From contig MWDO01000014.1 in NCBI GenBank assembly GCA_002070605.1, positions 1 through 55,712 of the forward strand: a stretch of DNA of 55,712 nt, given 5' to 3'. Positions 9,812 through 53,076 of the stretch are shown here, piece after piece. The notes below the pieces were generated by a model. It saw only the letters and a list, made by a program, of their open reading frames with translations. It was not told the origin of the DNA and ran no database searches. Numbering within the stretch: the first letter of the stretch is position 1; every line of letters starts with the position of its first letter. Source of the DNA: Spirochaetes bacterium ADurb.Bin133. Lineage in GTDB: Bacteria; Spirochaetota; GWE2-31-10; MWDO01. Both the position numbers and the translations under genes were made by a program.

Positions 9812-9973
9812 AAACTATCACCTCTTATTTTTGATGCGAAATATTAAAACGCAAGTTAAAGAATAAAATATTTTTTTAAAATTTCAAAGAGTTTTTTTTA
9901 TTTTTTTTTATTTTTATTAATTATTTAATTTGTTTTTTATATCCGCAAAATAGTAAAATATTTTAAATTTGCG
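9812..9973. promoter_or_regulatory. Upstream region of the V-ATPase operon
   Basis: A very AT-rich 160-bp stretch with runs of T and A. It must hold the operon promoter, but no clear -35/-10 pair stands out on the minus strand; TTGAAA near 9890 is the best -35 candidate. Confidence 0.35.
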
Positions 9974-10125
9974 CCCGTCGGTTTTTTGGAAATTGACGCA
10001 TATGTGTCAAAAATAAAAATCGACGCATATTGAACAGTTTTTTTTAGTTAGTAAATTATTCGTCTTAATCCAACGCATATACGTCATTCGTCTCAAAAGT
10101 TGTCATTCCCCAAAAAACCGACGGG
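9974..10125. repeat. Dispersed inverted-repeat element, complete gene-less copy
   Basis: It begins CCCGTCGGTTTTTTGG and ends CCCCAAAAAACCGACGGG (10108-10125), giving arms of about 16-18 bp that face each other. Inside are several TGACGCATATG-like boxes, one of them a near-palindrome (TTGACGCATATGTGTCAA). The interior TTAGTAAATTATTCGTC stretch also occurs upstream of the 171-aa genes, tying this small copy to the gene-bearing element. Confidence 0.8.
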
Positions 10126-10151
10126 GTTACGTAAAGAGTAATTAGAGACTA

Positions 10152-10203: not shown

Positions 10204-10788
10204 ATGGGGTATGCGCTAAAGAAAGAGATTGAAAAATATACGTATTACGACTATAAAAACTGGAACGACGGGGAGAGGTATGAACTTATAGACGGAGAGG
10301 TTTACAATATGAGCCCCGCGCCAAGAAAATCTCATCAAATAATTAGTATGAATTTATCAAGAATCTTTTCCAGTTATTTAAAAGGGAAGTCTTGTAAGGT
10401 ATTTGCAGCCCCTTTCGACGTTCGCTTTCCGGAATATCAGGATCAGAACGACGACGATATAGAGACCGTCGTTCAGCCCGATATATCTATAATCTGCGAT
10501 AATGACAAACTTGACGACGCGGGATGCAAAGGCGCGCCCGATCTAATTGTTGAGATTTTATCTCCCCATACTTCCCGAAAAGACCTTAACGAAAAGTTCT
10601 ATCTCTATGAAAAACATAAAGTAAAAGAATATTGGGTAATCTACTCTTACGAACGGCTTCTTCACGTCTATAAACTTGGAGAAGACGGCAAATACGGCTC
10701 TTCGGTAATATACGGGCTCGACGATAAACTCAGCCCGACAATTTTTCCCGAACTTATTGTCGATATAAACGAAGTTTTTGAGGAATAA
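10204..10788 (+). CDS. Uma2 family (DUF820) putative endonuclease
   Basis: A 194-aa protein with the PD-(D/E)XK-like core of the Uma2 family. It has YELIDGEVYNMSPAP near the N-terminus, the acidic strand QPDISIIC, then PDLIVEILSPHTSRKDLNEKFYLYEKHKVKEYW, which contains the conserved D, E and K positions. These proteins are abundant in cyanobacteria and some other phyla, often near mobile DNA; their biological role is not settled. GGGGTAAG lies before the ATG. It is flanked on both sides by dispersed repeat elements. Confidence 0.85.
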   Translation: MGYALKKEIEKYTYYDYKNWNDGERYELIDGEVYNMSPAPRKSHQIISMNLSRIFSSYLKGKSCKVFAAPFDVRFPEYQDQNDDDIETVVQPDISIICDNDKLDDAGCKGAPDLIVEILSPHTSRKDLNEKFYLYEKHKVKEYWVIYSYERLLHVYKLGEDGKYGSSVIYGLDDKLSPTIFPELIVDINEVFEE

Positions 10789-10796
10789 ATTCTTAA

Positions 10797-10905
10797 TTTC
10801 GGACGTCCTTGTCCTCAAAAGTCGTTGCGCCGCGCTTTAGACGCATATGTGTCAAAAAAAAATTGACACATATGGGACAGTTGCTCTTACCAAAAAACCG
10901 ACGGG
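10797..10905. repeat. Dispersed element, right half
   Basis: The module TTTCGGACGTCCTTGTCC at its left end, extending to GTTGCGCCG, recurs almost exactly at 20001-20036. It is followed by two TGACACATATG-type boxes and the right arm CCAAAAAACCGACGGG (10890-10905). No left arm CCCGTCGG is visible. Confidence 0.7.
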
Positions 10906-10912
10906 ATACGCG

Positions 10913-11070
10913 CATCGCTTATTTTTGGAAAAACAGCGGAGGCGATACTTCATCGCTTATTTTTGGAAAAACAGCGGAGGCGATACTTCATCGCTTATTT
11001 TTGAAATAAATAGTGGAAGCGATACACGCATCGCCTTTTTTGAAATAAATATGGAAGCGATACTTGCTTT
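10913..11070. repeat. Four tandem 38-40 bp repeats
   Basis: Units start at 10913, 10951, 10989 and 11029 (periods 38, 38, 40). Each begins CATCGCTTATTTTTG and ends GGAGGCGATACTT or a variant, so ATCGC and GCGAT can pair within and between units. The period is not a multiple of three and the frames are not preserved, so it is non-coding. Together with the element at 10797 it fills the 365-bp gap between genes. Confidence 0.75.
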
Positions 11071-19714: not shown

Positions 19715-20092
19715 AAAAAACCTTGAAACGTCTAATAAAATATAAATTAGATTTTAAATCTCTGCGATAATTTTAAAATAAATTTGACTAAAAATCAAGG
19801 GTTATTTATTGAGGATTAAATTTAACGCATGCGCGTCGCGTCGATTAAAGAACGCGCGACAATTGTCGCATAGAAATTCGACGCATATGCGTTAAAAAAA
19901 ATTGACACATATGGAGGAGCTATATGCGCCGCGCCGCTTCCCGAGAGAATTTCGACGCATATGATATGCGTCGCAAGCGCTCCTCGATGAAAAATCGACA
20001 TTTCGGACGTCCTTGTCCTCAAAAGTCGTTGCGCCGTCCGCGAAATTTATAATAATATAATTATTCATCCTTCGACAATTCCTTTTAAATCT
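19715..20092. repeat. Intergenic mosaic of dispersed-element modules
   Basis: This 378-bp gap holds no gene. Between 19822 and 20040 it carries TGACACATATG-type boxes, the 14-bp perfect palindrome GCGACAATTGTCGC (19856-19869, repeated at 52267-52280), and a module beginning TTTCGGACGTCCTTGTCC (20001-20036) shared with 10797-10832. The CCCGTCGG arms are missing, so it looks like a decayed or rearranged copy. Confidence 0.7.
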
Positions 20093-24539: not shown

Positions 24540-24690
24540 CCCCGTCGCTTTTTTTGGCGCGGTGTGGGAGAAAATGACACATATGGAGCAAATAAAATGA
24601 CACATATGGAGCAAATAAAATGACACATATGGAACAAATAAAATGACACATATGGAACAAATAAAATGACACATATGGAACAAATATCTT
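24540..24690. repeat. Five tandem 23-bp copies of the TGACACATATGG box
   Basis: It opens with an arm-like CCCCGTCGCTTTTTTTGG, then five perfect or near-perfect 23-bp units start at 24571, 24594, 24617, 24640 and 24663, each AAAATGACACATATGG followed by AGCAAAT or AACAAAT. It lies between convergent genes. Confidence 0.85.
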
Positions 24691-24704
24691 TACTCCCCTA
24701 TCTT

Positions 24705-26465: not shown

Positions 26466-26610
26466 ATCCGCTCCCTGATTGATATTATTAAGAATGGCGC
26501 AATCGTCTATTTTAGTCAAGAATTTTAAGAAAAATTGACGAATTTTTATATATCAATAAAAATAATTTTCAAAATTAAACATTTTTTTAAATTTATCCGC
26601 ATTAAGTACT

Positions 26611-27318
26611 CCGTCGGTTTTTTGTGGGACGGGGAAATGACACATATGGCGCTAAGAATAAATTGACACATATGGGATAAATATTTTTAATTAGCAAAAT
26701 ATTTATCATTTTTTAAAATTTATCCAAATTTTTGTAAAGAGTTTTCTACTTTTAGTTGTTATATATATTAAAGAAAAAGGAGAAAACTTTATGAAAAACA
26801 AAAAACATCTATTCCATTTTATAGTATCAGAGTCTATGAATAAGAACGTCATAGATTTTTTACTAAAAGAGTTCAAAGTTAATACGTTCAGTAAACTATT
26901 TGAAACAATGTTTTGCCTTATTGACAAAAAAATCCTAAAAATGAAAAGGATAATAGGGAATCATCGCTCCGAATACGCTGTTATAGATAATATCGACGAT
27001 AAAAGGTTAAACAAATACCTCAGGATTAGCGAAGCGGATTATCTTCAAATTAAAAGATGGCATTCTTTGTATAATGAATTTGGTATGGCTTCGACAGTCC
27101 GCGATATTATCTTGTTTTTCTATAACGGCGTTATGAAATACGGGTTGGAAGGATTTCTTGAGCTTATTGGTAAGAAATTGAGGATGGATAAATTGAAAAA
27201 CGACTTTTTGGATAAAATGACACAACTGTTAAACATCAACGCTCGAAAACAGCTGTTATACACGCTCCTGATCGAAAATTATCCCAGATACGTCTACTCT
27301 ACGTAAAAACTGAGGGGG
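26611..27318 (+). mobile_element. Gene-bearing copy 1 of the dispersed element
   Basis: The left arm CCGTCGGTTTTTTG starts at 26611, followed by two TGACACATATGG boxes, a conserved 90-bp leader, the 171-aa gene, and a right-arm remnant AAAAACTGAGGGGG (27305-27318) fused to the stop codon. The arrangement matches the intact copy at 52213-53054. It fills the 325-bp gap after the DUF362 gene. Confidence 0.6.
26791..27306 (+). CDS. Element-borne 171-aa protein, copy 1, RHH-like
   Basis: A 171-aa protein, one of three close paralogues here (others at 35820 and 52508). Two segments look like ribbon-helix-helix units: residues 6-48 (strand HLFHFIVS, then two helices) and 75-118 (strand KYLRIS, helix EADYLQIKRWHSLYNEFG, helix MASTVRDIILFFYNGVMKYG). 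It may therefore be a single-chain double RHH DNA-binding protein; this is inferred from the pattern. It also recalls the Leptospira DUF1564 proteins (from memory, weak). No nuclease or HUH motif is seen. AGGAGAAAAC precedes the ATG. The last third of the protein differs most between copies, while residues 56-122 are almost fixed. Confidence 0.65.
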   Translation: MKNKKHLFHFIVSESMNKNVIDFLLKEFKVNTFSKLFETMFCLIDKKILKMKRIIGNHRSEYAVIDNIDDKRLNKYLRISEADYLQIKRWHSLYNEFGMASTVRDIILFFYNGVMKYGLEGFLELIGKKLRMDKLKNDFLDKMTQLLNINARKQLLYTLLIENYPRYVYST

Positions 27319-27340
27319 ACAAATTTCTTTCCTTTTTTTG

Positions 27341-34075: not shown

Positions 34076-34217
34076 AATAATCCTCGATAAAATAAAAGTT
34101 CTCTAAATTATCGGATAAGGATATATTATAACTTAAATAGTCTTATGTTTAAAATTTTATAGATTTATTAAGTATATCTAAAATTTTAAAATATATATCG
34201 GTTAATTTTCTTAGCGT
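34076..34217. other. AT-rich divergent intergenic region
   Basis: No gene is seen. It must hold the minus-strand promoter of the SPOR gene, but no confident -35/-10 pair is visible. Confidence 0.3.
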
Positions 34218-34449
34218 CCCGTCGGTTTTTTGGGGCGAGAAAATAACGCCATATGTGTCAAATTTATTCTTAGCGTCATATGTGTCAATTTTACCCCTCA
34301 ACTTCCCCTTTGCCTTGTCATTCTAAGCTTGTCGAAGAATCAGGACTACAGCTCGCGCGTACCCGATGCGCGCGATGTTAAAGATAAAAATCGACGCATA
34401 TGAGACAGATATTTTAATCGGTAAATTATCTCCCCAAAAAACCGACGGG
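34218..34449. repeat. Dispersed inverted-repeat element, complete gene-less copy (232 bp)
   Basis: The left arm CCCGTCGGTTTTTTGGGG (34218-34235) and right arm CCCCAAAAAACCGACGGG (34432-34449) are exact reverse complements over 18 bp. The interior has three CATATG boxes and a GC-richer central insert that includes GAAGAATCAGGACTACAG. Confidence 0.9.
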
Positions 34450-34527
34450 CGCATTTTCTTAAATAATAACTATTTACTTTTATCAATTTTTTTGGTAAAA
34501 AATATCATAACATTTTTTGGAGATTTT

Positions 34528-35661: not shown

Positions 35662-35690
35662 TTAATAGTTCTCGCCTCTTATTATTCAAA

Positions 35691-36372
35691 TTGACACATA
35701 TGGAGCATTTTTCCTAATTTAATAAATTATTCGTCATTTTCTAAAAATTTATCCAAATTTTTGTAAAGAGTTTTCTACTTTTAGTTGTTATATATATTAA
35801 AGAAAAAGGAGAAAACTTTATGAAAAACAAAAAACATCTATTTCATTTTATAGTGTCTGAATCTATGAATAATAACGTCATAGATTTTTTACTAAAAGAG
35901 TTCAAAATTAATACGTTCAGCGAGTTATTTGAAACTATGTTTCGTCTCATTAACAAAAAAATCCCAAAAATGAAAAGAATAATCGGAAATCATCGCTCCG
36001 AATACGCCGTTATAGACAATACCGACGATAAAAGGCTGGATAAATACCTTAGGATCAGCGAAGCGGACTATCTTCAAATAAAAAGATGGCATTCTTTGTA
36101 TAACGAATTCGGTATGGCTTCGACGGTCCGCGATATTATACTGTTTTTTTATAACGGCGTTATGAAATACGGGTTGGAAAGATTTCTTGAGATTATTGGT
36201 AAGAAATTGAAGGTCGATAAATTAAAAAACGACTTTTTGGGTAAAATGACACAACTGTTAAATATCGCCGATCAAAAACGGCTATTATACGCCCTCGTAA
36301 TCGAAAATTATCCCAAATACGTCTACTCTACTTAGAATTATTTTTCTATTCCGCCAAGAAAAACCATCGAGG
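35691..36372 (+). mobile_element. Gene-bearing copy 2 of the dispersed element, degraded ends
   Basis: It has one TTGACACATATGG box at 35691, the conserved 90-bp leader, the 171-aa gene, and a decayed right arm (CCAAGAAAAACCATCGAGG, 36354-36372). No left arm was found, so this copy is probably fixed. Confidence 0.5.
35820..36335 (+). CDS. Element-borne 171-aa protein, copy 2, RHH-like
   Basis: A 171-aa protein that differs from the copy at 52508 at about 13 positions by eye. The central block from GNHRSEYAVIDN to FFYNGVMKYGLE is almost unchanged, while changes cluster after residue 125. The 90 bp upstream, including TTGTAAAGAGTTTTCTAC and the ribosome site AAGGAGAAAAC, are also nearly identical to the other two copies, so the unit was duplicated with its expression signals. 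The likely ribbon-helix-helix layout is described for copy 1. It lies between the acyl carrier protein and PlsC genes and interrupts that set. Confidence 0.65.
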   Translation: MKNKKHLFHFIVSESMNNNVIDFLLKEFKINTFSELFETMFRLINKKIPKMKRIIGNHRSEYAVIDNTDDKRLDKYLRISEADYLQIKRWHSLYNEFGMASTVRDIILFFYNGVMKYGLERFLEIIGKKLKVDKLKNDFLGKMTQLLNIADQKRLLYALVIENYPKYVYST

Positions 36373-37776: not shown

Positions 37777-37781
37777 CATAC

Positions 37782-38032
37782 CCCGTCGGTTTTTTTGAGG
37801 GCGCGTAATGAAAATAATTTGACACATATGCGTCGCGCTGAACCCTCGATTTCCCCTCGCATACGCGCGGGACGCGAAATCGAGGGTTCAATAGTCGCGC
37901 GTATATAGCTCCATATGTGTCAAATTTTTAAAACAGTAGAGCGCACCCCGCCGTTTGTCGGTATCATATGTGTCAATTTCTCTCAGGGGCGGCGCATATA
38001 GCTCCATATGTGTCAATTTCAAAAAACCGGCG
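37782..38032. repeat. Dispersed element with nested 15-bp inverted repeat
   Basis: The left arm CCCGTCGGTTTTTTTG (from 37782) and right arm CAAAAAACCGGCG (38020-38032) enclose four CATATG boxes. Nested inside are TGAACCCTCGATTTC (37839-37853) and its perfect complement (37876-37890), able to form a strong hairpin. It explains most of the 400-bp gap between acpS and the OmpA gene. Confidence 0.8.
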
Positions 38033-38058
38033 TAGCGCGTTTTTCAATTTGGTTATTA

Positions 38059-39409: not shown

Positions 39410-39425
39410 AGTTATCAACATAACT

Positions 39426-39566
39426 CGTCAGTTTTTTGGGGAGGAATGACAACTTTTGGGACAGTTCCTTTAAAATGACACATATGCGTCGGATTGAGAC
39501 AAATAATTCACTGATTAAAATATTTGTTTCATATGTGTCAATTTTCCCACCCCAAAAACTGACGGG
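39426..39566. repeat. Dispersed inverted-repeat element, CGTCAG variant
   Basis: The arms CGTCAGTTTTTTGGGG (39426-39441) and CCCCAAAAACTGACGGG (39550-39566) enclose two CATATG boxes. Read on the minus strand the interior parallels the copy at 9974 (ATTTTAATCAGTGAATTATT). Confidence 0.85.
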
Positions 39567-39574
39567 ATACATCC

Positions 39575-41008: not shown

Positions 41009-41079
41009 AATTATCTCCTCATAAAATTTATAGTTTATTTTTTAAGAAAACTCAAGAGTATTATCTGAAAATTAGCGTT

Positions 41080-41183
41080 CCGTCGGTTTTTGGGGATGGA
41101 GAAATAAAATGACACATATGATACCGAAAATAAATTGACACATATGAAACAGGTATTTTCTCTCGCCCCAAAAAACCGACGGG
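41080..41183. repeat. Dispersed inverted-repeat element (104 bp)
   Basis: The arms CCGTCGGTTTTTGGGG and CCCCAAAAAACCGACGGG enclose two boxes. The interior from AAATAAAATGACACATATG to TATTTTCTCTCGCCCC is nearly identical to the copies at 42701 and 43931. Confidence 0.85.
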
Positions 41184-41206
41184 ATACAAAAAGAAGAAAA
41201 ATAGCC

Positions 41207-41441: not shown

Positions 41442-41467
41442 GGCGATTAAATAAAAAAAAGGGTAAT

Positions 41468-41567
41468 CCGTCAGTTTTTTGGGATATGGAAATGGATAAC
41501 GCGAGCCTGTCTCAAAAAAATTGACACATATGGAACAAATATTTTTTATTCCCCAAGAAACTGACGG
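41468..41567. repeat. Dispersed inverted-repeat element (100 bp)
   Basis: The arms CCGTCAGTTTTTTGGG and CCCCAAGAAACTGACGG enclose one TTGACACATATGG box. Confidence 0.8.
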
Positions 41568-41591
41568 AATACAAAAAAAAGAAAAATAGCC

Positions 41592-42651: not shown

Positions 42652-42700
42652 ACTCTTTTTTATTTTCTGTTGATGTTGAGTAAAGAGTTTTCAAGATAGT

Positions 42701-42800
42701 TGCGGTTTTTGGGGATGGGAAATAAAATGACACATATGATACCGAAAATAAATTGACACATATGAAACAGGTATTTTCTCTCGCCCCAAAAAACTAACGG
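42701..42800. repeat. Dispersed inverted-repeat element (100 bp), block C
   Basis: The left end GCGGTTTTTGGGG is atypical (it follows GTT, recalling the CRISPR repeat start); the right end is CCCCAAAAAACTAACGG. The interior is nearly identical to the copy at 41080. The unit that elsewhere leads into a mini-ORF and CRISPR repeat is cut after about 15 nt (ATAGCTACGTCAATC). Confidence 0.75.
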
Positions 42801-42832
42801 AATACAAAAAATAGCTACGTCAATCATACCCG

Positions 42833-43930: not shown

Positions 43931-44039
43931 TAACGCATATGCGCCGCGCCGCTCATCGATGGAAATGACACATATGATACCGAAAATAAATTGACACATA
44001 TGAAACAGATATTTTCTCTCGCCCCAAAAAACTGGCGGG
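43931..44039. repeat. Dispersed element next to the array, left arm lost
   Basis: Boxes at 43931, about 43966 and 43990 are followed by a right arm CCCCAAAAAACTGGCGGG (44022-44039). The interior matches 41080 and 42701. Confidence 0.75.
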
Positions 44040-44061: not shown

Positions 44062-44118
44062 ATGCCAATCGAAGTAACCATAGATAATAGCGAAGTCATG
44101 CTACGGTTTGATCTTTGA
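44062..44118 (+). other. Mini-ORF ending in the first array repeat, copy D
   Basis: Encodes MPIEVTIDNSEVMLRFDL, with AAGGAAAAAACC before the ATG as a plausible ribosome site. The last codons are in the degenerate first CRISPR repeat. Confidence 0.4.
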
Positions 44119-46771
44119 TTTTGATATGGTATAATCGAAAGGAGTTTTGTGATGTATAGCGAAGAGTTGCGGTTTGATCTTTGATTTTGATATGGTATAA
44201 TCCGATTACGCTAGACACGATTTTGAAGTGCGTTGCGGTTTGATCTTTGATTTTGATATGGTATAATGCCGACAGAGGTAGAGTCTAAACTAATGGAGTT
44301 GCGGTTTGATCTTTGATTTTGATATGGTATAATCTTGAGGTGAAGCTCAATTCGTTTGTGAAGTTGCGGTTTGATCTTTGATTTTGATATGGTATAATTA
44401 ATTTCGCGAGTTTTTCTTCTTCGCTTAGTTGCGGTTTGATCTTTGATTTTGATATGGTATAATCTAAATAAAGGAAGAACAAAGCAACTAAAAGTTGCGG
44501 TTTGATCTTTGATTTTGATATGGTATAATAAGGCGATAAACTGCTAATTATATTGGGAAGTTGCGGTTTGATCTTTGATTTTGATATGGTATAATCTTAA
44601 ATAGCAAAATACCGGAAACCGCTCTGTTGCGGTTTGATCTTTGATTTTGATATGGTATAATTAATATTTCTGTCGAAATTATGAAAACTTTGTTGCGGTT
44701 TGATCTTTGATTTTGATATGGTATAATTGAGAATGGCGAGCGAATGAGTTCTGAGGTGTTGCGGTTTGATCTTTGATTTTGATATGGTATAATGGATTGC
44801 ATCTGTTAGAGAGTTGTATATCGTTGCGGTTTGATCTTTGATTTTGATATGGTATAATTTGCCTCCAAAATAATACTCTCTTCGAGTAGTTGCGGTTTGA
44901 TCTTTGATTTTGATATGGTATAATGAGGTCAAAACTTTGGACAAAAAAAATCTAGTTGCGGTTTGATCTTTGATTTTGATATGGTATAATAATTCTGAAT
45001 AGTTGTTGTCTTTGTCGTAGGTTGCGGTTTGATCTTTGATTTTGATATGGTATAATGAGGTTTTAAAAATGGAAGTCACACTGGAAGGTTGCGGTTTGAT
45101 CTTTGATTTTGATATGGTATAATAAAGAAACTCAAAGCAGCTATAGAATCTAGTTGCGGTTTGATCTTTGATTTTGATATGGTATAATTTATTTGCCGGA
45201 GGGAATAAAAGACGCTGGGTTGCGGTTTGATCTTTGATTTTGATATGGTATAATTCAAGAATTTCTTTCTGTTGTTCTATATAGGTTGCGGTTTGATCTT
45301 TGATTTTGATATGGTATAATTCTAAAAGAGGGCTCTGCTATTCACGCAATGTTGCGGTTTGATCTTTGATTTTGATATGGTATAATTAATCCGACACCAG
45401 CAACAACAGAACCTAAGTTGCGGTTTGATCTTTGATTTTGATATGGTATAATCAACAGGAAGAAGAGAAGAAAAGAATCGAAGTTGCGGTTTGATCTTTG
45501 ATTTTGATATGGTATAATGAAATATTCAGATTGAAAGTTTGCCGGCGGGTTGCGGTTTGATCTTTGATTTTGATATGGTATAATTAAAATATTGGATAAG
45601 TGTCCATTTTTCAAGTTGCGGTTTGATCTTTGATTTTGATATGGTATAATAGCATAACTTATGAGGTGTCTTGTAGCGTGGTTGCGGTTTGATCTTTGAT
45701 TTTGATATGGTATAATTTAAAAAATAATATTAAAATATTAAATGAAGTTGCGGTTTGATCTTTGATTTTGATATGGTATAATAAAATCAACAGTTTTAAT
45801 TAATTTCTTGCAGTTGCGGTTTGATCTTTGATTTTGATATGGTATAATCGGCGACTATTACAAGCGATACGACAGTAAGTTGCGGTTTGATCTTTGATTT
45901 TGATATGGTATAATTGACCTTTTGCGACGAAGTCCGCTATATCTGTTGCGGTTTGATCTTTGATTTTGATATGGTATAATGTTCTGATTTTCTATATCTT
46001 GATGAATATGTTGCGGTTTGATCTTTGATTTTGATATGGTATAATAGCGAAAATGATATATGCGGAAGATTGCTAGTTGCGGTTTGATCTTTGATTTTGA
46101 TATGGTATAATTAAAAAATATCGCAAAGAATATTAGAAATAGTTGCGGTTTGATCTTTGATTTTGATATGGTATAATACTAAAAAGCGGTATATAATTAA
46201 GCTCCGAGTTGCGGTTTGATCTTTGATTTTGATATGGTATAATTTTGGCTATCTCGCGAATAGTTACGCGGAGTTGCGGTTTGATCTTTGATTTTGATAT
46301 GGTATAATTCTTGAAATACAGCTCCTCGCCTTGACACTGTTGCGGTTTGATCTTTGATTTTGATATGGTATAATTCCGATGTAGTGTTGTCGTCTATATC
46401 TCTTTGTTGCGGTTTGATCTTTGATTTTGATATGGTATAATAATAGAAAGGCGTTTATCCTGCGCTGAGAAGTTGCGGTTTGATCTTTGATTTTGATATG
46501 GTATAATAAATCGGGCGGCGTTTGAGGCGGCTTATTAGTTGCGGTTTGATCTTTGATTTTGATATGGTATAATTTATGACACCTTCCCAACGGCTCAGAC
46601 TGGGTTGCGGTTTGATCTTTGATTTTGATATGGTATAATAAAATTATTGCCTTTGTTATAAATTTTTGGGTTGCGGTTTGATCTTTGATTTTGATATGGT
46701 ATAATCGTGAAAGGCGGCAAGCGTGAAGGATCGGGGTTGCGGTTTGATCTTTGATTTTGATATGGTATAAT
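44100..46771 (+). CRISPR. Type II-C CRISPR array, 41 repeats and 40 spacers
   Basis: By hand count, 41 repeats of 36 bp (start GTTGCGGTTTGATC, end GATATGGTATAAT) run from 44100 to 46771 with spacers of 29-31 nt, mostly 30. The first repeat (44100-44135) has two changes; the others looked identical. Each repeat contains TTGATC (positions 9-14), 16 bp, and TATAAT (31-36) preceded by TG, an extended -10 promoter. Transcription is therefore expected to start inside each spacer on the plus strand, as described for Neisseria II-C arrays. The orientation agrees with the tracrRNA anti-repeat. Frames reading LYHIKIKDQTAT repeats across it are artefacts of the 66-bp period. Confidence 0.98.
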
Positions 46772-46944
46772 AGTCGTATTGTAACTATATATCTTATCGT
46801 TAATTGCAGCGCGATTCGCTTTAAAAAAAAGCCAAGTTTTTGTGAGATTTACCATGTCGCAGTCAAGTTTTTCGCTATATTTCATTGTATTAATTCCGAT
46901 TAATACGGAAATATAGCGCTTTTTTTGAAATATGTCAAATTCGG
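46772..46944. other. Region between the array and cas2
   Basis: 173 bp with no gene. It follows the last, perfect repeat and may act as the adaptation leader, because the degenerate repeat lies at the other end. No clear terminator is seen. Confidence 0.4.
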
Positions 46945-47283
46945 CTAAAAAAGTTCTAATTGAACCGGTTGACGCGGTTTAGGCGCCTCTTTTTGCCCCC
47001 AAAAATTAATTATATCGCCGTATTGTTTGTCCGTTATCGAAACCATACTAACCGAGCCTTTCGGCGGTATAAACGCCTCTATTCTCTGAACGTGAGTCTT
47101 CATCGCCTCTTTACTTGCGCAATGCCTGATATAAACGGAAAATTGCATCATTGTAAAGCCGTCGTTTAATAAATTTTTTCTGAATTTAGCGGCGTTTTTC
47201 TGATCCTTTTTATTTGCAACGGGCAAATCAAAAAACACAAATAACCACATAATTTTATAAGCGTTTAAACAATTCTGCGCCAT
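46945..47283 (-). CDS. cas2: CRISPR-associated endonuclease Cas2
   Basis: A 112-aa protein with the ferredoxin-like Cas2 fold: IMWLFVFFDLPVANKKDQKNA (with the acidic residue after the first strand), DGFTMMQFSVYIRHCASKE and VSMVSITDKQYGDIINFWG. It pairs with Cas1 to integrate spacers. It is the last cas gene, 4 bp after cas1. The C-terminal QPVQLELF is typical of type II Cas2. Confidence 0.95.
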   Translation of the reverse strand: MAQNCLNAYKIMWLFVFFDLPVANKKDQKNAAKFRKNLLNDGFTMMQFSVYIRHCASKEAMKTHVQRIEAFIPPKGSVSMVSITDKQYGDIINFWGQKEAPKPRQPVQLELF

Positions 47284-47287
47284 CCTC

Positions 47288-48184
47288 CTACTCCAAAGTC
47301 GGATAAATTATCTTTTTATCTTCTCCCGAAAAACATCTCGCTAACGAAGCGGTAGTCTGCGACAATCCGACCATAAAAGGTCTTTTAACGTTAGGATATT
47401 CAGCGTCTACTGTCAAAATTTCAAGCAGTTTTTTCTTCATATCGCTTGTTAATCCGGTAGCGTCGGGGCGTTCCACAGATATATTGTAAACCGCCTCGTC
47501 CACAAACGGCCTAAACGGCTCCATAATATCGTCCGCTAGACAAAAGGCGTTATATCTATTACAATGATGTATCCCAAGCGTCGGCAATAATCCCGATCCC
47601 GTTAAACTTCTGGCGACCGCCGATCTCACTACGGCGTAACCGTAATTTAGAGCGCAGTTAGGAAACTCTCCTCCGACATCTCTTTTAAACTCGATATCTG
47701 AAAATAGCCGTTTCCAATAAACTCTAGCCGCTACCGCTTCGCGATTGTCCGCGTCGCCGCTTTTAACTGAGTTTTTATATTCGTAAAGTTTGATATAATC
47801 TTTATTCAATTTTTTGAGTAATCTTATCTGATTGTCTATTTTTGCTTCGACAGTCTGTTTCCACAACTTTTTCTTTAGCGGTTCGGATGCGTTGATCTGA
47901 TTTGAGAATATTTCGCTCTGTATATGGTTGCCGTCGAGATTTAGCAACAAACTTTTTGGATTATGAGTCGAATCGCAAAAAACGACGGCGACGTTGTTCT
48001 CTATCAGTAACTCCAAAACCGACATCGATACGCTAATTTGCCTATTGTCTATAACGACAAATCCGATATCCTCTACCGGAAAAGTCGTCTCCGGTTTTTC
48101 GTCAGTATGCGGTTTATATACCAACTGGGAGTTCTTGATATGAAGATAACAAGGCGTGGAGAAAAAAATCGTCTTCTTTAACAT
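47288..48184 (-). CDS. cas1: CRISPR-associated integrase Cas1
   Basis: A 298-aa type II Cas1. The metal-binding residues are Glu149 (DNREAVAARVYW), His206 (LGIHHCNRYNAF) and Glu222 (DDIMEPFRPFVDE). The N-terminal beta domain (1-75) is complete. It catalyses spacer integration with Cas2. It lies 47 bp after cas9; no csn2 or cas4 is present, which is what defines subtype II-C. Confidence 0.97.
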   Translation of the reverse strand: MLKKTIFFSTPCYLHIKNSQLVYKPHTDEKPETTFPVEDIGFVVIDNRQISVSMSVLELLIENNVAVVFCDSTHNPKSLLLNLDGNHIQSEIFSNQINASEPLKKKLWKQTVEAKIDNQIRLLKKLNKDYIKLYEYKNSVKSGDADNREAVAARVYWKRLFSDIEFKRDVGGEFPNCALNYGYAVVRSAVARSLTGSGLLPTLGIHHCNRYNAFCLADDIMEPFRPFVDEAVYNISVERPDATGLTSDMKKKLLEILTVDAEYPNVKRPFMVGLSQTTASLARCFSGEDKKIIYPTLE

Positions 48185-48231
48185 AACTTTTTCCCGATTA
48201 TTCCGTAAATTTCATAATCGGAATACAAAAG

Positions 48232-51200
48232 TTAAAAAATAAATTTTATCTTCCCGTCGTTAGTTATCAGGAAATCTTTATTCTCGATTAAGGCCTTGAA
48301 TTGAGAATGTAACAACATTCTTTGCGGAATATACTCCTCATTATTTTTAAAAGAGATATTTATTTCTTTTAATTCTATACTTGCTCTGGATTCTAAATGA
48401 TGCCTCAAAGAAATTCTACCATATTCGTACTTCTTTTGCGCGGTCATAGACGAAAAACCGATAATTTTATACAATCTTTTTGACAGTTCTTTTACATTAT
48501 CTTTGATGCTATCAATTTCTCCTTTACTGTTTTCATATAACAATACCATCATTCCTCTTTTTAATTTCTGACGTAATTGAAGCCCGTTTTTTTCATCGGG
48601 CAGTTTTGTATTTTTTGACTTTGCGAGTTCAAAGTTACTAACAAGTATAAAATCTTTTTTCGGTTTATTGGCGATTGTCCCTTCGTATATCCCCATCATA
48701 TAATTACTATCGTTCGTTACATAGATATTTTCTTTATACTCCTGTCCATCCTTAGATTTATCTCTATGATTCTTTAAGATTATCGGATTTGCAATATTCG
48801 TCATTTGATATCTAACTTTATTTATCGGGATTTTTTTCTCTTCATTCATCCAGATAGTTTCCGATATCGCCTCGGCAAAACTTTTACCGTCAGTCGTTCG
48901 GCGCTCAATAACCGCCCTAATTTTTCTTCTAATTCCTTCGTCGACAATATTATCTATCTCTTTTTCGTTTTTCAGACTATTTACAGGTTTTCTTACGACA
49001 TAACGCAATTTTTCGTTATTATTTTCGTCTTTTCTTTTAATAGCGCCGTAGAAAGTATCAAGATGCAACGAACCTCGAAAAGTATCTCCCTGCATATAGA
49101 TTGGCTTATTCTTGCCGTCGTTACCTTCCGGATACTTTATTTTACCTCTAATTCTTAATTTCTTCTTACTTTGTTTAAGCGTTTTATCTTCAAAATGATG
49201 TTTTACTATGATTTCATCCTCGATTTTTTTTATATCTTCGACAAATGTAGCCCATGGCTTTTTGAATGTCGGTCTTAAACCTCGCTCGGCATCTTTATAA
49301 AAGGTAGATAACAAATTGTATTTCGGTCCGGTAATACTTGCCAATACAATAGCGTCGACGGTATGATGACTATGTTTATTTCTAGATTTTATATCATATT
49401 CGTTCTGTACTCCCCATATTTTCCTAAATTGAGCGGTCATACTCCCTTTTATTGAGTTTACATCGTCAAATACGGTTTTTAGATAAGCCCTTGCATATTT
49501 TGTTATAATGGCGGTATCGCGTAACTGTCTATTTGTAAATCCTGAAGGAATATCTTTTATTAAAAATCTGTCGTATTTTTGTTTGAGATAATCCTTTTTT
49601 AATATCAAATAATTTTTCCATTGGATAGCTTTGTCCTTATCTTCCTTAGAACTAGAGTTTTTTGAAGAATTTTTTGCCTTATTAATCTGTTTTTCAAAAT
49701 TTTGATATTCTTCTTTCCAATGTTCTATTCTCAATAAAATTTCCTCTATATTTGGAAGTTGTTGAGGAATCATATTTTTCTTAATATTCCTATTAAAATC
49801 GTTATGGCATAACGTCAGATTAACTTGCGAATCGTCAAAAGATAAACTTCGAGGAATAGTATGCTCAATATCATAAATGGGATTGTCGGATAAGAAATCT
49901 GAAATATTTATCTTTTTTCCCGTATATAGACACATATGGCGCTGTTCCTCCCATAATTGATATTTTAGTATATCTGTTTCAGTAGGTTCAATTTTGAGGG
50001 TATCTTTAATTTTTTGAGCGCATTCTTTTTTGTTTTTTTCCAGTTCGTTTTGATATCTTTTTATAGCCGCTCGCATATTTGCATCGTTAAGTTCTCGCGT
50101 CAGTTCAATATTTATTGTATCGTTAGACGATATTTTGTTTTCTTTAATTAAAGTATTTATTAGTTTTTTTAATTGATGTAGAGTTTTCATCGCCATAGGA
50201 TTTCTAACAGATTGAGTACGAGGAGACCCCAAATATTTTTTTCCATCCGGAGCCGGTTTAGCGTCCGGATATATATCTAAGTCGGATGGATGAAATAATT
50301 TAGTTAAATTTTGTTCGGGAATATCGTATTTATCCTTTAATAACTCGATTATCTTCTCGTCAAGTCGTTTTATCTTGATAAAATCGTTCCTTTTAATCAT
50401 TTTTTCCAATAAAGAAAAATATTCATCGATAAAGGTTACCCTTTCCGATTCATTCAAAGATATAAAATCTTCGCCCAGCTCAGAATCTAACTTTTTTATA
50501 AAATCTTCTTTTTCTATTTTTAAACTAAAATGATTTTCTCTGTATTTGTAAATATATGAATTTATTATGTTTTCTACTTTTTTAGAATTTCTAAAAACGT
50601 CTATTAGAGATTTAATATCCTCTTTTATTTCGCTAAGCTTATTTTTATTTTTCTCATCAACCGCCTTGCCAAGATTCGCAAAATACGCGGAGTAAGAATA
50701 CAAAAGCCCTTCTTTAAGATATGGTAATATTTTTCTGATTGCGCATAAACTGAGACTTCCGTATCCCTGTTTTAGTTTTATCTTACTGAGTTTATTCGCT
50801 TTGTCTTCATCGAGTTTTAGTCGATTAATCCCAAATTCTTTGATTTTTTCAACGCTGTCGAAATTAAATAGTACATGCCAAATAGTTTCATAATTTATTA
50901 TGGATTTTTTATTATCTTTTTCTCTGATGTATTCAAAATTAATATTTATCCAATCGTCTCCAAATATTTCTATCAACTGAGAAATAGTCGGACACCCGGA
51001 TACTAAAGTCCAATCTGTATAATTTAACGTCATATCTCTATTTTTATTAGTTATCCTTTTTCTAATTTCTTCAAAATCAAAATTTGGTTTTGACTTTCTC
51101 AAAAACAGAGGTTTTATCATCAATTTTTCTTCGTCGTTTAAGAACCTTTTTTCATTTATAACTTTTATCGAGTTTATAAATTGTAAAGCTCTGAATTCTT

Positions 51201-52008
51201 CAAATAATGGATGGGAAATAGGACATCTTGGTTTTGATTTTTCAAAAACGCATTTCCCAACTAATCCTTTTTGGGATTTTAACGGTCGTTGAAAAAAAAT
51301 CGCTTTTTCCAGCTTTATAGATAATTCTTTTGAAAATTGTTGAATTTCGCATATTTTTTTGAATTCTGATAAATAATGTTGTTCTCTTGACGTGTATTTG
51401 CTTCGTATCTTGTCTCCCTTTTTATACAATTCGTAAAAATATTCGCCTAAAGTAAGAGTTCCGATATTTTTATTTATTTCGTTTATACCGCTGTTTACTT
51501 TTCCGTCCTCATTTGCTTTTGTCGTTTCTAATCGATTGCTTTTATATCCTCTTCTTTGAGCTATATGATATAACGCTCTGCCAACTTCGTATAACGGTAA
51601 TTTACTTTTTGCAGACATCGCTCTAAAATAATAAGGATTTTTGTTTGTCGCTTCGTCAGTTTTTAGCCACTCCAAAAAATCTTTACTCTTAGGATACTCT
51701 CTTTTAAAACCTTTTTTATATTTTGCCCATTTTTCAAGTTCTTCTAAAGTCAAAGGAGACATTTTGTTTTCTATTAATACTTTTAAAGTTTCATACTTTC
51801 TCAATCTTCTTCTGAATTTTTGTCTTCGAGCAAGTCTAAAGGACGTTCTTTCCGCCGCTTTTGACGATTCGACTCCCTTTTCAATTTTTACCCCCTCTGA
51901 AAAAATAAATACGCCGCTATCGATTAGTTTATGTTCACCCCTCTCCTCTTCGACAATCGCCCAGCCGATCGAATTTGTTCCGAGATCGAGTCCTAAAACT
52001 TTTCCCAT
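48232..52008 (-). CDS. cas9: Cas9, type II-C RNA-guided nuclease
   Basis: A 1258-aa protein. RuvC-I MGKVLGLDLGTNSIGWAIVE has Asp8, and the Arg-rich bridge helix is RRQKFRRRLRKYETLK. RuvC-II IELTREL has Glu635. The HNH domain DIEHTIPRSLSFDDSQVNLTL has His716. RuvC-III HSHHTVDAIVLA has His882 and Asp885. All catalytic residues are present, so it should be active. It is longer than the about 1080-aa Neisseria enzyme, with an enlarged recognition lobe. The C-terminal PAM-interacting region is not assignable. The promoter TGTTATAAT lies about 30 bp upstream. Confidence 0.97.
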   Translation of the reverse strand: MGKVLGLDLGTNSIGWAIVEEERGEHKLIDSGVFIFSEGVKIEKGVESSKAAERTSFRLARRQKFRRRLRKYETLKVLIENKMSPLTLEELEKWAKYKKGFKREYPKSKDFLEWLKTDEATNKNPYYFRAMSAKSKLPLYEVGRALYHIAQRRGYKSNRLETTKANEDGKVNSGINEINKNIGTLTLGEYFYELYKKGDKIRSKYTSREQHYLSEFKKICEIQQFSKELSIKLEKAIFFQRPLKSQKGLVGKCVFEKSKPRCPISHPLFEEFRALQFINSIKVINEKRFLNDEEKLMIKPLFLRKSKPNFDFEEIRKRITNKNRDMTLNYTDWTLVSGCPTISQLIEIFGDDWININFEYIREKDNKKSIINYETIWHVLFNFDSVEKIKEFGINRLKLDEDKANKLSKIKLKQGYGSLSLCAIRKILPYLKEGLLYSYSAYFANLGKAVDEKNKNKLSEIKEDIKSLIDVFRNSKKVENIINSYIYKYRENHFSLKIEKEDFIKKLDSELGEDFISLNESERVTFIDEYFSLLEKMIKRNDFIKIKRLDEKIIELLKDKYDIPEQNLTKLFHPSDLDIYPDAKPAPDGKKYLGSPRTQSVRNPMAMKTLHQLKKLINTLIKENKISSNDTINIELTRELNDANMRAAIKRYQNELEKNKKECAQKIKDTLKIEPTETDILKYQLWEEQRHMCLYTGKKINISDFLSDNPIYDIEHTIPRSLSFDDSQVNLTLCHNDFNRNIKKNMIPQQLPNIEEILLRIEHWKEEYQNFEKQINKAKNSSKNSSSKEDKDKAIQWKNYLILKKDYLKQKYDRFLIKDIPSGFTNRQLRDTAIITKYARAYLKTVFDDVNSIKGSMTAQFRKIWGVQNEYDIKSRNKHSHHTVDAIVLASITGPKYNLLSTFYKDAERGLRPTFKKPWATFVEDIKKIEDEIIVKHHFEDKTLKQSKKKLRIRGKIKYPEGNDGKNKPIYMQGDTFRGSLHLDTFYGAIKRKDENNNEKLRYVVRKPVNSLKNEKEIDNIVDEGIRRKIRAVIERRTTDGKSFAEAISETIWMNEEKKIPINKVRYQMTNIANPIILKNHRDKSKDGQEYKENIYVTNDSNYMMGIYEGTIANKPKKDFILVSNFELAKSKNTKLPDEKNGLQLRQKLKRGMMVLLYENSKGEIDSIKDNVKELSKRLYKIIGFSSMTAQKKYEYGRISLRHHLESRASIELKEINISFKNNEEYIPQRMLLHSQFKALIENKDFLITNDGKIKFIF

Positions 52009-52190: not shown

Positions 52191-52212
52191 ATAAACGGTC
52201 ATTGTTTTTGCG

Positions 52213-53054
52213 CCCGTCGGTTTTTTGAAAAGAGAATTTGACACATATGAGTCGCGTCGATAACGCGCGACAATTGTCGCGCGGCGCTCCTCGATAAAAA
52301 ATTGACACATATGGAACAGATATTTTCGGATAAAGTAACTTCATTACCCTTAGCGCTTTGGAAAGTAGAGGGAAAATTGACGCATATGTGTCATTTTTTT
52401 TAATTAGTAAATTAATTATCATTTTCTAAAAATTTATGCAAATTTTTGTAAAGAGTTTTCTACTTTTAGGTGTTATATATATATACAAAGAAAAAGGAGA
52501 AAACTTTATGAAAAACAAAAAACATCTATTTCACTTTATAGTATCCGAATCTATGAATAAGAATGTCATAGATTTTTTACTAAAAGAGTTCAAAATTAAT
52601 ACGTTCAGCAAACTGTTTGAAACTATGTTTCGGCTTATTGACAAAAAAATCCCAAAAATGAAGAGAGTAATCGGAAATCATCGCTCCGAATACGCCGTTA
52701 TAGACAATACCGACGATAAAAGGTTGGATAAATACCTTAGAATCAGCGAAGCGGACTATCTTCAAATAAAAAGATGGCATTCCTTGTATAACGAATTCGG
52801 TATGGCTTCAACGGTTCGAGATATTATCTTGTTTTTTTATAACGGCGTTATGAAATACGGGTTGGAAGGATTTCTTGAGATTGTTGGTAAGAAATTAAGG
52901 ATTGATAAATTGAAAAATGACTTTTTGGGTAAAATGACACAACTGTTGAGTATCGCCGTCAAAAAACGACTATTATACGAGCTCGTAATCGAAAATTATC
53001 CCAAATACGTCTGCTCTACATAAAACTATTTTTTATTCCCCAAAAACTGACGGG
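52213..53054 (+). mobile_element. Gene-bearing copy 3 of the dispersed element, both arms present
   Basis: The left arm CCCGTCGGTTTTTTGAAA (from 52213) and right arm CCCCAAAAACTGACGGG (53038-53054) enclose about 842 bp. Inside are four CATATG boxes, the palindrome GCGACAATTGTCGC (52267-52280), the conserved leader and one 171-aa gene. The left end begins just after the tracrRNA terminator. This is the most complete copy and the reference for the family. Confidence 0.7.
52508..53023 (+). CDS. Element-borne 171-aa protein, copy 3, RHH-like
   Basis: A 171-aa protein, about 92 percent identical to copy 2 by eye. The frame is open 24 codons further upstream, but the ATG at 52508 follows AAGGAGAAAAC and gives the same N-terminus (MKNKKHLFHFIVSES) as the other two copies. 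It carries the same two strand-helix-helix units as copy 1. No catalytic motif is seen. Its place inside inverted repeats suggests either a DNA-binding repressor of the element or a factor acting on the element ends; which of these is not decidable from sequence. Confidence 0.68.
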   Translation: MKNKKHLFHFIVSESMNKNVIDFLLKEFKINTFSKLFETMFRLIDKKIPKMKRVIGNHRSEYAVIDNTDDKRLDKYLRISEADYLQIKRWHSLYNEFGMASTVRDIILFFYNGVMKYGLEGFLEIVGKKLRIDKLKNDFLGKMTQLLSIAVKKRLLYELVIENYPKYVCST

Positions 53055-53076
53055 ATACTTTTTTACAAAATTTATC

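Follow-up and report, generated by a model that had tools for sequence, protein, structure and literature searches.

A TGACRCATATG box family and the gene of a 171-aa, putatively DNA-binding protein within a mobile element of a Spirochaetes genome

The window (the whole stretch of 55,712 nucleotides analysed here) is contig C14 of the draft genome of Spirochaetes bacterium ADurb.Bin133 (G000; 2,985,136 bp in 103 contigs). It holds three copies of a gene for a 171-aa protein, the second of which served as the query, each within a gene-bearing element, and a number of shorter elements and clusters that carry the box TGACRCATATG (Table 1). The window further contains, at 44104-52008, a CRISPR array with a period of about 66 bp together with cas2, cas1 and cas9, one of the gene-bearing elements lying directly beyond cas9, and, at 10204-11065, a Uma2-type gene located between box elements and followed by a 38-bp tandem repeat.

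Table 1. Gene copies, elements and box clusters in the window (TIR, terminal inverted repeat; TSD, target duplication)
Feature	Positions	Strand	Remark
MITE with boxes	9970..10129	.	
Box cluster	10839..10904	.	right TIR only
Box cluster	19879..19963	.	without TIR
Left TIR-like sequence (24542) and five-unit 23-bp box array	24542..24686	+	partly degenerate; no right TIR adjoining
Gene-bearing element	26606..27321	+	TIR to TIR; matrix pair
171-aa gene, copy 1	26791..27306	+	
MITE with boxes	34214..34453	.	
Gene-bearing element copy	35689..36362	+	orthologous G001 site empty
171-aa gene, copy 2	35820..36335	+	query
MITE with boxes	37778..38038	.	
MITE with boxes	39420..39570	.	
MITE	41075..41187	+	two boxes 26 bp apart
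MITE	41463..41572	+	9-bp TSD with 8/9 matches
MITE	42694..42805	+	two boxes
Box cluster	43931..44038	.	right TIR only; beside CRISPR array
Gene-bearing element	52209..53058	+	TIR to TIR; adjoins cas9
171-aa gene, copy 3	52508..53023	+	called as 195-aa ORF from 52436

That dozens of boxes populate the window, as a preliminary description had stated, is borne out by 32 exact copies against a mean chance expectation of 0.04; the entire genome holds 1,238, and the reversed control pattern occurs 0 times. The boxes had also been placed nearly all between genes, which applies to 184 of the 230 exact boxes in 455,712 sampled bases when open reading frames (ORFs) of at least 80 aa are considered; the other 46 lie inside such ORFs, mostly short ones (83-120 aa) which are probably not genuine. 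Near-palindromic boxes, likewise reported, result from an overlap producing TGACRCATATGYGTCA, the commonest close pair (22 of the 184 pairs at most 120 bp apart). The array at 24571-24686, described as a perfect five-unit repeat, indeed comprises five boxes arranged head-to-tail in 23-bp units, with the box identical in 5/5; the units themselves, however, differ at a single base (GGAGC in units 1-2, GGAAC in units 3-5), and the 23-bp period is that of one case, 26 bp being the commonest same-direction spacing (11 ++ pairs vs 5 pairs at 23 bp). The sister species (MAG Go_SlDig_bin_318; G001) possesses a five-box run of its own with 22-bp steps on contig C6, and its alignment with the window begins only past the 24542..24686 element, at 24693. 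In the array of the window, the box unit has been multiplied locally within a degenerate element.

The boxes occur as components of mobile repeats, a family with inverted ends and 9-bp target duplications. Thirty gene copies read in one orientation share the same plan (inverted end, box or boxes, leader, gene, short tail and mirrored end), the terminal inverted repeats being GTAnYCCGTCRGTTTTTTGGGG and the element ends carrying GTAATCCGTCAGTTTTTTGGGG. Within the window and a further 400 kb, 51 end pairs are indicative of a 9-bp target duplication if the element is taken to begin 5 bp outside CCGTC, and the end matrix built from these pairs, when applied to a sample of 695,712 bp, matched 260 times over both strands, as against 3 matches for a single strand of block-shuffled sequence; exact TIR cores number 175 genome-wide and reversed ones 0. 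The sample contains 91 rows with paired terminal inverted repeats, as in MITEs (two rows, L122 12559 and 12560, are a single element read one base apart). Over the 91 rows, the mean identity of the 9-bp duplication is 0.471 vs 0.319 (sd 0.017) with permuted right flanks; the duplication is perfect in 14 and has 8 or 9 matches in 17, and none of the lengths from 5 to 12 but 9 bp is comparable, so that its length is constant as in MITEs. For the gene-sized elements alone the duplication is weak (at least 7/9 matches in 4/20 vs a permuted mean of 1.3 and maximum of 4), and these elements look older. An exact box is present in 84 of the 91 rows; paired-TIR elements account for 4.1% of the sample and contain 183 of its 339 exact boxes, and the 156 outside them, some of which lie beside single ends, likely belong to decayed elements. 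As most boxes form part of the interior of a mobile element and of its MITEs, their number and their intergenic position are explained.

Versions of the element that bear the gene measure 0.7-0.85 kb and those devoid of it 80-400 bp, the latter looking, by their sequence, like deletion derivatives (MITEs) of the former. Several elements of 99-130 bp consist of box and leader joined directly to the tail and right end of the gene element, with the deletion joint in or near AATTATTT, a sequence common to leader and tail. The 171-aa gene is the sole long ORF of the parent element; an ORF of its family is found in 16 of the 21 paired-TIR rows of at least 400 bp, and the remaining 5 have either different ORFs or no member of that family. 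Transposase models for the IS4/IS5 type (DDE_Tnp_1) and for IS66 each gave 0 matches in the genome, and the IS256 model gave two short fragments only, without the ends of the element. Viral contigs, scanned with the DNA pattern and the profile, and plasmids, scanned with the protein, yielded no match. At C9:45814-46910 of G000 (L112), the same ends enclose two ORFs between box clusters, a pair which we take to resemble a PIN toxin and an RHH antitoxin.

Comparison with G001 reveals empty sites. The gene copy at 35820 is absent there (718 bp in G000 vs about 26 bp in G001), and in a second 20-kb stretch all three MITEs examined face intact target sites with one target copy, one gene element of that stretch likewise facing a short G001 site; two gene elements are absent in all. 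The element would have been amplified at about the time when the two species diverged, or later. Exact boxes number 65 in G001 and 0-6 in the other 58 genomes, and are thus numerous only in the two genomes having close relatives of the gene, the very distribution for which the preliminary description had proposed to look. When a collection of genome contigs was scanned with the single 171-aa protein no match was obtained, and a profile scan of it matched only the sister MAG; a profile search of the nine genomes of the class detected the family in 6 (88, 25, 14, 7, 1 and 1 matches).

The genome of G000 has 83 matches to the protein, of which 55 cover almost its full length with at least 84% identity and many others are cut by contig ends, where the youngest copies may be hidden. 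For the 42 of 58 gathered copies that are exactly 513 nt long (three diverged copies and other lengths being excluded), mean dN is 0.057, mean dS 0.459 and dN/dS 0.124, with 0 stops; dN/dS is 0.15 for nearest pairs and 0.29 for codon changes private to one copy. The low dN/dS, the high dS and the lack of stops indicate old gene copies kept by selection. The closest pair has a dS of 0.18, and the mean dS between a G001 copy and the G000 copies is 0.58, with six orthologous genes of the two genomes at 0.59-1.2; copy dS being near ortholog dS, the copies are old, close in age to the species split. Identity is highest in the leaders (0.892), lower at fourfold sites (0.766) and lowest in the first 60 bases past the coding region, the tail (0.511); promoter and protein have thus been maintained while the element ends decayed. 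Of the 51 copies with a called upstream neighbour, 37 have it in divergent orientation, a proportion which, set without a genome baseline, is read as avoidance of operon damage.

The TGACACATATG boxes resemble sites recognised by a small DNA-binding protein, and they had been proposed to be the operators of the 171-aa gene, present upstream of every copy. The positional part of this proposal is upheld in all three copies of the window and, across the genome, in 48 of 49 close copies having TGACRCATATG within 250 bp upstream, mostly at about -125 and in either orientation (6 of the 58 gathered copies had less than 200 bp upstream; 49 of the remaining 52 were counted with a box, and 48 of 49 once three diverged copies are set aside). 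The operator function itself is favoured by the fact that the box stays in place even at 40-46% identity, the level at which ten of the 11 full-length G001 copies match the query: an exact box lies within 200 bp upstream in 9 of the 11, though that genome has only 65 boxes in total. It is also favoured by the different palindrome of other subfamilies, and is limited by the finding that most boxes are internal to the element and its MITEs.

In the diverged subfamily C (MKYDFS), GGGAATTCCC occupies the same upstream place in 8/11 copies and TGACRCATATG in 1/11, and in subfamily D (the MLHRYHF pair) TGCGCATATGCGC does so in 2/2, subfamilies and boxes 2 and 3 having been defined by eye and counted in the very same G000 and G001 sequences. 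The 49 close copies have GGGAATTCCC upstream in 2 cases and the third box in 0, and an exact copy of any of the three boxes is absent in 8 of 18 diverged paralogs (3/11 of subfamily C and 5/5 unassigned). These different boxes across paralog subfamilies suggest that box and protein are a cognate pair, which is probably autoregulatory. ACGGGAATTCCCG gave 122 strand hits in G000, 56 in G001 and 0-2 in the other 58 genomes, most sites being counted twice in this palindrome; it lies within a longer dispersed palindrome around AAAACGGGAATTCCCGTTTT (e.g., L076:11136 and L113:7370), which makes up a further repeat family, associated with a different paralog subfamily. An exact box was also seen inside the gene, near its 3' end, in 3/3 diverged G000 copies (C24:29107, C8:47432, C12:44046) and 6/10 diverged full-length G001 copies (C82, C144, C188, C221, C240, C308), and the close copies have TGACACAACTG at this intragenic position.

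The earlier assignment of the protein to the RHH class is plausible from its sequence, with Pfam matches at the N-terminus of relatives that lie below every curated cut-off (RHH_1, E 0.044 and 0.067; RHH_3, 0.041; CopG_antitoxin, 0.14). Its N-terminal and middle parts can be aligned in register, at an hhalign E of 0.00048 but with a probability of 32%, and together with the predicted secondary structure this alignment suggests two strand-helix-helix units; AlphaFold (AF2) models of ten relatives have a pLDDT of 43, too low for fold comparison. No catalytic domain was found, and the conserved residues, in our judgement, match no known catalytic motif. Sequence searches of the PDB gave nothing meaningful and PHROGs nothing convincing, and none of the libraries names the family. 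DUF1564, a multi-copy family of Leptospira, was rejected as an identity, not being among the Pfam hits at E<=5 or 10.

Taken together, we consider it fairly probable that the 171-aa RHH-like protein binds the box and regulates its own gene, the box having been spread by the mobile element and its MITEs. The protein, probably with two strand-helix-helix repeats, would bind the box, some 125 bp ahead of the start codon of its gene, and would control the promoter of that gene (TTTTTGTAAA...TTGTTATATATA, in the stretch from box to gene); gene, leader and box would travel within the inverted-end element, inserting with a 9-bp target duplication, and internal deletions would give rise to MITEs that keep ends and boxes and lose the gene, so that the box would have been scattered to over a thousand sites, with the surviving gene copies retained by selection. 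Binding, autoregulation and the RHH fold are what we infer for the protein from these patterns. It is possible, if rather doubtful, that the boxes are instead subterminal repeats bound in transposition, and that the protein is a transposition protein (a DNA-binding subunit, such as a transpososome or silencing factor) and not a promoter regulator. The 171-aa gene being the only long ORF of the parent, the persistence of boxes in 84/91 rows, and a genome with no IS4/IS5-type or IS66-type transposase and two short IS256-type fragments only would all fit this alternative. However, old G001 copies with decayed ends still have the upstream box, diverged subfamilies show another box at this position, where the upstream stretches that were read lack these TIRs apart from a single one near L164, and no catalytic domain was found in the protein.

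An improbable role is chromosome organisation, the protein coating the chromosome via its many boxes in the way that CdbA, an RHH protein of Myxococcus, does; the more than 1,000 dispersed sites recall the more than 500 sites bound by CdbA (PMC7156744), but G001 holds no more than 65 boxes, and for such a protein it would be odd to have dozens of gene copies under selection. The view underlying the preliminary description, a pure operator regulon with incidental repeats, does account for the association of box and gene and for the intergenic position, but has become very improbable and is largely refuted, since TIRs, 9-bp duplications and empty sites show that insertion placed many of the boxes. 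Least probable of all is that the box acts as the -35 element of outward promoters on the repeats: TTGACACATATG does start with TTGACA, the sigma-70 -35 consensus, and MITEs of Porphyromonas gingivalis contain promoters (PMC4596501), but ahead of the gene the box takes either orientation at one and the same position, and a conserved promoter-like stretch lies downstream of the box.

Among known systems, REP/RAYT elements rely on a Y1 (HUH) transposase and have no target duplication, and such an identity was rejected (no Y1 match at E<=5; duplication present here). RHH autorepressors of the CopG/Arc type autoregulate through short palindromic operators; the protein described here differs by two repeats in one 171-aa chain and by matches below the Pfam cut-offs. 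Mobile insertion cassettes (MICs) are defined by a passenger gene between IS ends. Described as IS-related elements lacking a transposase gene of their own (PMC3129680), they share with the present element inverted ends around one non-transposase gene; here, unlike in MICs, a cognate IS was not found among IS4/5, IS66 and IS256, and the putative binding site of the passenger is co-amplified. BrickBuilt, a P. gingivalis MITE holding a 23-nt minisatellite, is likewise intergenic, has inverted ends and encloses a 23-nt tandem array, but neither its repeat (AGAYCATARTATCCTCTCRTRTG) nor its ends (GAGACCTTCGCA) are related to those reported here, and its account, as far as available, gives uneven target duplication lengths and no gene-bearing parent, in contrast to 9 bp and a gene-bearing parent here (PMC4596501). 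MITEs of the Correia and ERIC type are similarly intergenic and reach up to hundreds of copies (PMC10969869), but differ from the present family in its co-mobile DNA-binding protein gene and cognate site. CdbA of Myxococcus xanthus is comparable as an RHH(-like) protein with hundreds of genomic sites and unlike in being encoded by one essential gene, with moderately specific sites mostly inside genes and not mobile (PMC7156744). A literature search revealed no account of this box-protein-element system, its nearest parallels being BrickBuilt, MICs and CdbA, and TGACACATATG was encountered in one unrelated plant paper only.

It is tempting, if unlikely and clearly speculative, to extend the autoregulatory reading further: the only gene of the element would encode a transposase-less DNA-binding protein that drives spread and persistence of the element via its box, in a class-wide pattern with one operator per paralog subfamily, at least two of which (TGACRCATATG and ACGGGAATTCCCG) would have been amplified genome-wide, and with dozens of regulator copies individually selected. 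Transposons carrying a regulator along with the operator that belongs to it could quickly rewire a chromosome, and such rewiring can be tested in the present genome on more than 1,000 sites and on dozens of gene copies under selection. Finally, the switch of the cognate box among paralogs may provide a natural series from which to read the DNA-recognition code of an unnamed protein family.
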